Source: Streptomyces antibioticus
Lineage (GTDB): Bacteria; Actinomycetota; Actinomycetes; Streptomycetales; Streptomycetaceae
Length of the DNA stretch: 43,894 nt
Direction: 5' to 3'
NCBI RefSeq assembly: GCF_001514065.1
Contig: NZ_KQ948437.1
Coordinates: 1-43,894 of the forward strand
Below the pieces are notes generated by a model. That model was not told the DNA's origin and did no database searches. It was given only the letters and a program-made list of their open reading frames with translations. The translations under genes were made by a program, and so were the position numbers. Below are positions 25-29,419 of this stretch, in pieces (positions within the stretch are counted from its first letter, which is position 1; each line of letters opens with the position of its first letter).

Positions 25-1656
25 ATGGCATCGGGAGAAGTGCGGCGCGTACCGCACATGGGAGGGCTCCGGGTCGTTGGGGCGGTGCGGCTCAGCCGCT
101 ACACAGACGCCACCACGTCGCCTGAAGTCCAAGAGGAAATGATCACTGCCGCCCAACGGCGTGTGGGCGGCTCCTTCGTCGGATGGGCCACTGATCTAGA
201 TCTGTCGGCGCTCAAGACGACACCGTGGGAGCGCCCTGAGCTAGCGCATTGGCTGGAGCATCCCGACGACTGGGACGTCATCATCTGGCAGCGTATGGAC
301 CGCGCGGTGCGGTCCATGGCGGACATGGCGGACCTAGGGCGTTACGCGAAGAAGCACAAGAAGCGACTCATCTTCGCGTCCGGCCCCGGCGGCGACATGC
401 TTGAACTCGACTTCGGATCTCCGATGTCTGAGCTCATCACGCTCATCCTGGCCTTCGCTGCCCAGATGGAGGGGCAGACGATTATGGAGCGGAATCAGGG
501 TGCGGCTGCGCACCTTGAATCGCTCGGCCGTTGGGGAGGAGGGCCGGTCCCTTACGGGTGGAGGCCCGGACGGAAGACCTTCGAAGACGGGAAGGACGGG
601 TGGTGGCTATTCCTCCACACCGACGAAGAACCGACGCGATCCACGTCGGATATCCGCCGGGGAATGATCGCACGGGCAATTTCCGGGCAGGGATTCTCGG
701 AAATCACGAGGTGGCTAGAAGCAATGCACGCCATCACGCCGTTCAACCACCGGGCACTTCTAGCCGATCCTCCCCGCGATATCGACCCCGAAAGCCAGTG
801 GAACGTCACCGTCGTCCGGGACATGTTGCAGTCGGCCTTGAACCGTGGGTACATCGTGAAGCGCGACGGGACGATTGTCCGTGAGGATGACGGGACGCCG
901 CGCCTCCAGGCGGAGCCACTCATCGACGACGAGACGGCGTATCGGCTCAAAGACGCGTTGGTGAAGCTGGAGAACGGCCTCGCCGGCAAGCCCCGGAGTG
1001 ACGGTCACGAACTCCTGGAGATCATCGTTTGTGGTGCCTGCGACCGGAATTTGGTCCAGTCGTGGACGCCTGAGACGAAGGGGAAGGGGCGAAACCGTGT
1101 GCCGACCGGCGTCCGCGTCTACAACTTCCGGTGCAACGGCAAGTACCACCCGAAGGGCGTTCCGGGGCTCAGTGTCCGACGCACTGAAACCCTGGAGTGG
1201 CTCGACGAGCAGTTCATGGCGAACGTCGGCCCGTTCAAGCGAACGGAAGTGATCACAACCCCCGGCGTCGACCACCGAGGCGAGATCGAGGAGCTTGAAG
1301 CGGCCGTGGACGAGCTCGCGGAGCGTCTCGGGCGACTGACCGGTCCCGCCGCGGATGCCGTCGAGAAGCAACTCACCGGACGCTCCAACAGGCTCGCTGA
1401 ACTCCGTAAGACGCCCTACATCCCGCCGCGTCAGGAGGTCGTGACGCTTGACCAGACATGGGGCGACGCCTGGCGAGCCGCTGACGACTGGTATGAGCGG
1501 GCTGAGTTGATGCGTGCCATCGGCGTGCGCGTGGAGGCCGCTCCGTCGACGGGGTGGCGCCAGGACATCTCGGAGCGGCTGACGTTCCGTGTGGGGACTC
1601 ACGTCGACCCGGAGCAAGACGCCCTCGACGATGTGGCCTACCAAGAGAGCCTCTGA
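25..1656 (+). CDS. int: Large serine recombinase (phage integrase)
   Basis: A 543-residue site-specific recombinase that would integrate the phage between attP and attB. The N-terminal resolvase domain has the expected nucleophile in VRLSRYTD (Ser24). The recombinase domain follows. A zinc-ribbon with CGAC near residue 336 and FRCNGKYH near 370 comes next, then a charged coiled-coil region around 410-450. Length fits the large serine integrases of Streptomyces phages. The frame is open to the left edge and Met12 is an alternative start; neither start has a strong ribosome site. Such genes usually sit next to attP, so the left edge of the window may lie close to an attachment site. The likely RDF partner is encoded about 36 kb away at 37800. 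Function is confident; the exact start is not. Confidence 0.95.
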   Translation: MASGEVRRVPHMGGLRVVGAVRLSRYTDATTSPEVQEEMITAAQRRVGGSFVGWATDLDLSALKTTPWERPELAHWLEHPDDWDVIIWQRMDRAVRSMADMADLGRYAKKHKKRLIFASGPGGDMLELDFGSPMSELITLILAFAAQMEGQTIMERNQGAAAHLESLGRWGGGPVPYGWRPGRKTFEDGKDGWWLFLHTDEEPTRSTSDIRRGMIARAISGQGFSEITRWLEAMHAITPFNHRALLADPPRDIDPESQWNVTVVRDMLQSALNRGYIVKRDGTIVREDDGTPRLQAEPLIDDETAYRLKDALVKLENGLAGKPRSDGHELLEIIVCGACDRNLVQSWTPETKGKGRNRVPTGVRVYNFRCNGKYHPKGVPGLSVRRTETLEWLDEQFMANVGPFKRTEVITTPGVDHRGEIEELEAAVDELAERLGRLTGPAADAVEKQLTGRSNRLAELRKTPYIPPRQEVVTLDQTWGDAWRAADDWYERAELMRAIGVRVEAAPSTGWRQDISERLTFRVGTHVDPEQDALDDVAYQESL

Positions 1657-2901: not shown

Positions 2902-3003
2902 GGGCCACCCCCGCTCGCGCGGGGAATGCTGCGTGACCTAGAAGTCAGAGCCAAAACCGACAGGCTCATCCACTGGTTCACCCCCGCCTTCGCGGGGAGC
3001 AGC
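2902..3003 (-). repeat. Two units shaped like type I-E CRISPR repeats
   Basis: Read on the minus strand, the unit at 2975-3003 is CTGCT-CCCCGC-GAAG-GCGGGG-GTGAACC. The unit at 2902-2930 is GCATT-CCCCGC-GCGA-GCGGGG-GTGGCCC. Both share the block lengths (5-6-4-6-7) and the C/G stem of type I-E repeats such as that of E. coli, and the GTGAACC tail is typical of actinobacterial ones. The unit-to-unit period is 73 bases, with 44 bases between them, not the usual 61. No cas gene is present. They may be repeat mimics, a relic mini-array, or two chance terminator-like hairpins. Confidence 0.45.
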
Positions 3004-14322: not shown

Positions 14323-14652
14323 ATGTCTGAGACCACGAGCACCCCCGCTGAGTCGCAGGAGAACGAGGCCACGGCGGAGGAGTACACCACCCACGAGCTG
14401 GCGGGGACCCCGCTCCGCGTGCGGCCCATGGGGAAGTGGCGCCCCTCGTACCTGAAGGCGCTCCGCAACGGCGACTTCGAGGGTTGGGCCGCGGGGGCGC
14501 TCCACGAGGACGACGCTGAGAAGTTCGTCGAGATCGACGCCACCTTCGACGAGATCGGCGAGTTCACCGCCGCTGTGATGCAGTCCAGCGGGGAGGCCCC
14601 GGGAAAGTCTGGCGCACGCTCCGCACGCTCGAAGACCACGCGGAAGCGGTAG
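14323..14652 (+). CDS. Tail assembly chaperone (gpG-like)
   Basis: A 109-residue acidic chaperone that should coat the tape measure before tube assembly. ATG14323 (MSETTSTPAESQENEATAEE) is preferred over the in-frame upstream ATG, because that extension would encode the operator-like repeat. The slippery site GGGAAAG near its 3' end allows a -1 shift into the next frame. The unshifted product ends with a basic tail (RSARSKTTRKR). Confidence 0.87.
   Translation: MSETTSTPAESQENEATAEEYTTHELAGTPLRVRPMGKWRPSYLKALRNGDFEGWAAGALHEDDAEKFVEIDATFDEIGEFTAAVMQSSGEAPGKSGARSARSKTTRKR
14601..14607 (+). other. Programmed -1 frameshift site
   Basis: GGGAAAG is read G-GGA-AAG in the chaperone frame, so it has the X-XXY-YYZ form required for simultaneous -1 slippage. 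After slipping, the frame reads VWRTLRTLEDHAEAVEADL and remains open to 15065. This is the lambda G/GT arrangement used by most siphophages. Confidence 0.82.
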
Positions 14653-28807: not shown

Positions 28808-29419
28808 ATGGATCTGAGTGACAGCAGTGTTCGGCGGCGCATAAACCGACTCCTGTGGGAGCAGCGGGCAGGAGTGAAGATCTGCAACGCGTGCTTCAAG
28901 GTGAAGCGCCTAACGGACTTCAACGTTCGGAGCGGCGTACGCGACGGTCGCCAGCTGAAGTGCGCTGCGTGTGGGATACGGACCAACAGAGCCCGGTATG
29001 AGGAGAAGCGCGAGCACTGCCGGAAGGTCAACGATGCGTGGCGGGAGTCCAATCCCGCTGCGTACAGAGCCAACAACAGAGCGCAGGCCTCCAGACACCG
29101 GGCTATAAAGCGAAACGCCACGGTCGAGTCCTTCACTGCACGGGACCTCCGCCACGACTGGGAAGAGTACGACCTCTACGAGTGCTTCTTCTGCGGCGGC
29201 TCCCTCGTCGACGGCTACGAGGTGGAGCACTTCTACGCCTTGTCGAAGTATGGGCCGCACGCCCTCTTCAACCTCGTCCCCTCATGCATACCGTGCAACC
29301 GCGGAGCCGGCGGGAAGGGGACGAAGGAGCCGTGGGGTTACCTGCGGGAAGCCCTGGCAGAGCAGGGCGTCGACCTGGACGCCGCAATCGCCATCCTCGT
29401 CAGCCGCGAGCGACCGTGA
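28808..29419 (+). CDS. HNH endonuclease with N-terminal zinc ribbon
   Basis: A 203-residue protein. The N-terminal CNACFKVKRLTDFNVR...CAAC motif is a zinc-ribbon common in homing-type HNH proteins. A basic helical spacer follows. The nuclease core is ECFFCGG...DGYEVEHFYALSKYGPHALFNLVPSCIPCN (residues about 130-165, with EH...N...CxxC). Free-standing HNH genes often behave as homing endonucleases that spread between phages. GGAGGAGAG gives a strong ribosome site. Confidence 0.85.
   Translation: MDLSDSSVRRRINRLLWEQRAGVKICNACFKVKRLTDFNVRSGVRDGRQLKCAACGIRTNRARYEEKREHCRKVNDAWRESNPAAYRANNRAQASRHRAIKRNATVESFTARDLRHDWEEYDLYECFFCGGSLVDGYEVEHFYALSKYGPHALFNLVPSCIPCNRGAGGKGTKEPWGYLREALAEQGVDLDAAIAILVSRERP

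Follow-up and report, generated by a model that had tools for sequence, protein, structure and literature searches.

What are repeat units built like those of type I-E CRISPR arrays doing in a phage genome? The window, by which we mean the whole stretch of DNA analyzed (43,894 nucleotides), is an entire contig of a Streptomyces assembly (G000:C16), has a viral contig entry in IMG/VR, and encodes a serine integrase, an SPP1-type portal, and a Gp3-like directionality factor. An earlier note on this DNA had described two minus-strand CCCCGC-N4-GCGGGG units, 73 bases apart with 44 bases between them, in a noncoding stretch lacking cas genes, and had considered that they might be RNA anti-CRISPRs of the single-repeat kind, a phage mini-array, or chance hairpins.

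The units lie on the minus strand between tRNA genes and a DUF4352 gene, behind a promoter-like extended -10 element, TGCTAGCGT (3019 to 3011), recognized by sequence match only. The two units of the note are present as described, namely U2 (CTGCTCCCCGCGAAGGCGGGGGTGAACC; 3002 to 2975), which matches I-E repeats and bears the handle GTGAACC, and U1 (GCATTCCCCGCGCGAGCGGGGGTGGCCC; 2929 to 2902), an I-E repeat mimic with the handle GTGGCCC. Their start-to-start spacing of 73 is correct, and the linker between them (2974 to 2930) has 45 nt instead of 44. The count of two was too low, because a 28-nt linker (2901 to 2874) leads to a third unit, U0 (GTGTTCCCTGCCATCCGCAGGGATGAGCG; 2873 to 2845), which is degenerate, with a compensated stem CCCTGC/GCAGGG and a 5-nt loop. 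Next comes a terminator-like hairpin (2843 to 2809; inverted repeat 2809-2822/2830-2843), which lacks a long T-run, is shared with the tRNA genes of the other strand, and also forms in the RNA fold. Upstream of the tRNA-Gln gene, at 2188 to 2275 on the plus strand, a T-arm-like sequence, GTTCAAATCC, uncalled by ARAGORN, is perhaps a decayed or unusual tRNA.

All three units fall within 158 bp, with spacings of 73 and 56, and the predicted RNA fold contains all three hairpins, with pair probabilities of about 0.97 (U2), 0.98 (U1), and 0.9 (U0). The motif CCCCGCN4GCGGGG occurs twice in the window, against a shuffle mean of 0.05, and two sites were reached in none of 100 shuffles, so that two such sites are unexpected. 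A relaxed filter over the 44-kb window passed four sites, these three units and an isolated one at 14406. Taken as a whole, the two-unit stretch folds with no exceptional stability (z of -1.39; 19 of 200 shuffles as good). Mechanical ORFs overlap the unit stretch, none of them supported. The cas-less setting was borne out, in that no clear cas gene was found among the 17 window ORFs scanned (7 with Pfam only and 10 with Pfam and PADLOC); one ORF has a marginal PADLOC Cas4 match (E of 0.00098) and a Pfam PD-(D/E)XK match just below the cut-off, which fits a phage exonuclease. The phage ORF at 28808 to 29419 on the plus strand has a weak PADLOC PtuB-type (HNH) match, which alone makes no defence call.

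The units were compared with ten typed repeat entries. U2 differs by one base from an I-E array repeat of another Streptomyces, genome G300 (27/28; 96%), and matches the repeat of its own host at 24/28 positions, the differences being base 1 and three loop bases. U1 reaches 19/28 with its own host's repeats and at most 21/28 with any repeat compared, and both U1 and U0 are weak matches to every repeat compared, so that a match of at least 90% to a repeat of known subtype was reached by U2 and not by U1. The host arrays on contig 1 have the repeats GTGCTCCCCGCCGACGCGGGGGTGAACC and ...GTGGTTC. A close match to the own host is seen in Streptomyces sp. SID5910 (L108; G152), where 27 of 28 bases agree between the host repeat and unit 2 of the prophage cluster. 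The earlier note held that a lack of near-identical flanks outside the stem in the genus would count against mimicry; the flanks do match genuine Streptomyces repeats. Like the chromosomal I-E arrays of Streptomyces, the units have a 28-base repeat, the CCCCGC-N4-GCGGGG stem, and an [AG]TGNNCC handle. The chromosomal arrays differ in having near-identical repeats at a spacing of 61 and varied 33-nt spacers, whereas the direct-repeat spacings are 73 and 56 in the window and peak at 49/50 in the family described below.

The host carries an I-E locus (G000:C1:2800-28500; L013, L014, and L260) encoding Cse1-Cse2-Cas7-Cas5e-Cas6e, with Cse1 and Cas7 below the NCBIfam cut-off and Cse1 above that of Pfam, along with large arrays whose handles are of two types, GTGAACC and GTGGTTC. 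No Cas3 or Cas1e match above the cut-off was found in the host genome, and a Cascade-only system is possible. Cse1, Cas3, and Cas1e are all above the cut-off in G152, and three of the five cluster-bearing genomes tested (G073, G186, and G238) gave no Cse1 match. Since CRISPR-poor hosts may hold lysogens with or without a decoy RNA, host status neither proves nor excludes a function. Self-targeting was discarded as proof of need, as no self-targeting spacer was found in the window, where 149 host-array spacers gave a longest run of 15 nt, or in 20 kb of the 80-kb prophage contig of G152, where 12 of its own spacers gave at most 12 nt. I-E cas genes with arrays also occur on Streptomyces plasmids L302 (S. 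laculatispora), L303 (NBC_00162), and L306 (WAC00288).

At this genomic position, phage Samy has two units, L103 (= L019) and L107 have three each, L108 has four, and the relatives L020, L021, L024, and L016 show none. Streptomyces ambofaciens ATCC 23877 is a Samy lysogen that has been subjected to RNA-seq (PMC11302927). Among 31 HNH relatives from genome contigs, units passed a strict filter only in L108, which indicates that the feature is patchy. A scan of viral contigs gave, in at least 120 stretches, at least 292 adjacent pairs 43 to 73 apart, including at least 193 at 61 and at least 30 at 49/50, some of the latter being REP-like; with the I-E orientation rule, at least 156 pairs remained, at least 101 at 61 and at least 18 at 49/50. 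REP-like inverted pairs, found in both viral scans, were excluded by orientation. With spacings of 46 to 54 allowed, the oriented scan returned 49 matches in 42 stretches, 35 of them at 49 or 50. The spacing of the family peaks at 49/50, against the CRISPR value of 61. Phage ZL12 has three units with spacings of 61 and 49, and Cse1 had no match in Samy or ZL12. An S. anulatus plasmid has five units, and none of the five annotated genes within the surrounding 3 kb is a cas gene; several other plasmid matches are ordinary arrays, three of which adjoin cas genes. Twelve of 295 Streptomyces genomes match the oriented pattern. Four of them were judged to hold phage-type clusters, G152, G186, and G238 because their sequences recur in L108, L143, and L278, and G073 because its loops differ; the remaining eight, assessed only by their matched strings, were taken to be short spacers in ordinary arrays, with G187 ambiguous. 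Multi-unit clusters recur in syntenic and in unrelated phages, and on a plasmid.

For the cluster counts, nine of 50 listed loci were removed, leaving 41 clusters: L225 and L265 were REP-like; L263, L279, L281, L195, and L264 were array-like; L203 was ambiguous in strand; and L282 is a copy of L276. Gaps of less than 12 nt were also removed, and the window entered as two units, with U1 as the last. In L274 (IMGVR_UViG_2862725297_000001, 520 to 683), repeat and linker are tandemly duplicated and the 21-nt linkers are identical, a sign that the cluster may recently have grown by duplication. The very large viral contig of L263 and L279 (IMGVR_UViG_3300028840_006907; 469,617 bases) has repeats of a different type (CTATT.../ATATT...) in an array-like arrangement, most of them about 61 apart.

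Conservation of the crRNA-type handle extends to all units but the last. In the 98 inner units of the 41 clusters, the last two handle bases are C in 91 and 97 cases, and in the 41 last units in 15 and 18; handle positions 2 and 3, partly used for finding the units, were not counted as evidence. Among the 98 linkers, 33 have 21 nt, 20 have 22 nt, 11 have 33 nt, and 5 have 34 nt, the share of 21/22 nt (53/98) being favored by the scan window (46 to 54). A 6-nt ladder of lengths (15/16, 21/22, 27/28, 33/34, and 45) reflecting Cas7 footprints is not claimed, since counts outside the two main peaks are few and the 21/22-nt class was favored by the scan. The handles tend to pair with the linkers that follow them. 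Handles joined to their own linkers had a mean MFE of -7.34, against -6.52 with linkers of other clusters (sd 0.13; 0 of 200 as low), and the paired fraction, a less clear difference, was 0.540 against 0.500 (sd 0.015; maximum 0.549). In 79 deduplicated units with linkers of 14 to 36 nt, a range that leaves the 45-nt linker of the window outside, the gain from handle pairing was 4.51 kcal/mol, against 3.18 in shuffles. Real spacers gave 2.12 against 2.37 shuffled for 70 of 143 host spacers and 2.56 against 2.44 for 40 plasmid-array spacers, and the difference in z between units and real spacers had a P value of 1.1e-5. The pairing is a trend of the family, with only 18% of units reaching P<0.05 singly. 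In the window, U2 with its 45-nt linker gained 4.51 kcal/mol against 2.53 in shuffles, a level reached by 33 of 200 and not significant, and a handle hairpin of U1 read by eye was rejected (1.22 against 3.76 kcal/mol in shuffles; 184 of 200 reach it).

Regulators of the CreA type resemble crRNAs. The linkers could similarly be short guides, Cas6e yielding crRNA-like RNAs with guides of about 21 nt with which Cascade would bind a promoter of the host or a rival phage without cutting. Handles kept where a linker follows and decayed in the last unit are what such products would show, and shortened crRNAs are described for a type I-B system, where spacers cut down to 24 bp or below no longer support interference or priming yet still repress (PMC10989794). 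The family shares with such short crRNAs and with the CreA-type regulators the guide-like segment, shorter than a spacer, between a handle and a 3' hairpin; it differs in that no target was found, in having several units per RNA, and in being phage-borne. For the leading 21 nt of the 45-nt linker, a short guide that makes for a search of low power, the own genome has three sites at two mismatches and 18 matches besides the linker itself, against 7 in the reversed control, and the high score of this segment in the host CRISPR region was equaled by 1 of 60 shuffles. Against this, the second (28-nt) linker has one genome site at three mismatches versus 18 control matches, and the pattern searches of the own genome with the window linkers yielded no convincing target. 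Scored against their own loci, 2 of 92 linkers outdid each of 30 shuffles, about as many as chance would give, and four of five linkers were not above shuffles in host CRISPR/cas regions. Some linkers resemble each other between phages, and the linkers pair with the handle, so we regard guiding as an unlikely function.

The signals around the units and the changes within them bear on two further readings, taken up below. Samy, L103, L107, and L108 all retain TAGCGT behind TGN ahead of the first unit; the unit-less relatives L020, L024, and L016 lack it and any near variant, and L021 has TAGCAT. In 21 of 40 clusters, the pattern TANNNT ends between 3 and 32 nt upstream of the first unit, compared with 4.9% of 7,890 control positions, and [CG]ATAGT was seen in 11 further clusters by eye, without a control. 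After the last unit, a stem of at least 8 follows in 29 of 41 clusters, one of which (L160) is a padding artefact; the window is not among them because the search ended at U0. Stem sites were selected by closeness to the consensus, with pairing not used, and L286, a near-copy of L280, was additionally omitted. Among the changed stem pairs of 130 flank-filtered sites, 12 were compensatory (two-sided Watson-Crick), 4 were one-sided GU, 2 were one-sided and unpaired (both from a single doubtful site), and 1 was two-sided and unpaired; in 168 sites without the flank filter, the respective counts were 24, 7, 11, and 1. The stem changes are mostly compensatory by sequence comparison, which argues that the family is selected as RNA. 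In L270 (IMGVR_UViG_3300027319_000002), the compensated stem CCCCAC/GTGGGG occurs in three of the five units.

That the stretch is a hairpin-rich phage RNA or a cluster of terminators with no relation to CRISPR would agree with its GC-rich stems lying between two terminator hairpins and with Rfam, in which, the tRNA aside, no family reached its gathering score. We consider this improbable, as the similarity to genus repeats extends to the flanks beyond the stem, a promoter-like site precedes the units, and the CRISPR-DR family does appear on U1 below its threshold (19.8 bits of 35, opposite strand). In G000, G152, G186 (the rare TTG), and G073 (ATG), a small sample, cluster and host array moreover share their handle type; no array was found in G238 for this comparison. 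A decaying remnant of a captured CRISPR array would account for the diverged units and the irregular gaps of the window (45 and 28 nt), and seems to us no more probable, because the compensatory changes, the repeated 49/50 spacing, and the promoter and terminator signals in many phages speak for upkeep.

Virus-borne mini-CRISPR arrays are known, including in phages (PMC11656645; PMC6858448), and share with the locus cas-less repeats in a virus genome, and 11 of 98 linkers do have 33 nt; a mini-array against rival phages, the other proposal of the earlier note, is nevertheless very improbable here, as the repeats of mini-arrays are described as identical to the host's (PMC11656645), whereas the window units differ from each other and from their own host's repeats (24/28 for U2 and 19/28 for U1), family gaps are mostly 21/22 nt and differ from spacer length, certain linkers of different phages are related, and no target was found, the 45-nt linker having a best match at E of 4 among 50,697 phage records.

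We return to the RNA anti-CRISPR, and lean toward reading the minus-strand locus from 3019 to 2809 as encoding a small RNA, a tandem RNA anti-CRISPR that would act as a decoy for Cas6e/Cascade. The predicted hairpins, repeat mimicry that includes the flanks, compensatory stems, promoter and terminator signals, and recurrence point this way, as do the handles conserved except in the last unit and the family trend of handle-linker pairing. The proposal of the earlier note gains support in this respect, and gives way in another, as the units are not single repeats but parts of a three-unit member. Transcription from the locus's own promoter would yield about 200 nt of RNA comprising three hairpins like the I-E repeats of Streptomyces hosts and, at the end, a terminator hairpin. 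Each hairpin would be recognized by host Cas6e and probably cleaved at its 3' base, and the resulting fragments would sequester Cas6e and Cas7 in nonworking particles, to the benefit of the phage. Each inner product of the tandem RNA would carry a 5' handle, and the pairing of handle and linker, or an unusual linker length, would, as with RacrIF1, lead to a dead end. The particles would be no working Cascades because their guide-like linkers are of unusual length and without an evident target, and, in many family members, also because the 5' handle would fold onto the linker.

This proposed mechanism is modeled on RacrIF1. Solitary repeat units acting as RNA anti-CRISPRs (Racrs) include RacrIF1 and the I-E candidates RacrIE1 and RacrIE2 (PMC10651486). 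The RacrIF1 mimic is bound and cut by Cas6f, and the upstream product bears a Cas7f filament; Cas5f and Cas8f are missing from the particle because the product has no handle, and inhibition remained substantial when the handle was altered (PMC10651486). The window resembles a Racr as a phage-borne, cas-less repeat mimic behind a promoter, with a host-like hairpin and flanks and an expected occupation of Cas6 and Cas7, and it has the noncoding place and promoter-like upstream sequence by which Racrs are recognized. In contrast to the one unit of a Racr, the family has two to seven diverged units per RNA with structured linkers, and, whereas the inhibitory product of RacrIF1 is handle-less, tandem inner products would keep a 5' handle. 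The tandem locus thus probably works like a Racr, yet it is not a solitary repeat unit. SRUFinder, the program behind that collection, disregards full matches less than 100 bp apart and drops candidates resembling their own flanks (PMC10651486). With three units within 158 bp, the locus falls outside the solitary-unit definition and its class would tend to be dropped; as the known Racrs were collected with a program that removes neighbors, a multi-unit class would escape notice. Literature searches among open-licence PubMed Central articles turned up no title or opening of an abstract that describes a tandem or Streptomyces repeat mimic.

More tentatively, and as a possibility that we would not yet favor, Streptomyces phages and plasmids may bear a distinct class of tandem RNA anti-CRISPRs, in which varied mimics in one RNA would capture several Cas6e/Cascade units and cover the repeat variants of several hosts, while the linkers of many members would lock the new 5' handles in hairpins and so produce dead ends despite the handle. 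If it works, such an RNA would be a compact, multivalent Cas6e/Cascade sponge, possibly with built-in disabling of the handle. The family also yields a search rule for Streptomyces phages and plasmids, namely a 49/50-nt period, diverged repeats, and a decayed last handle.
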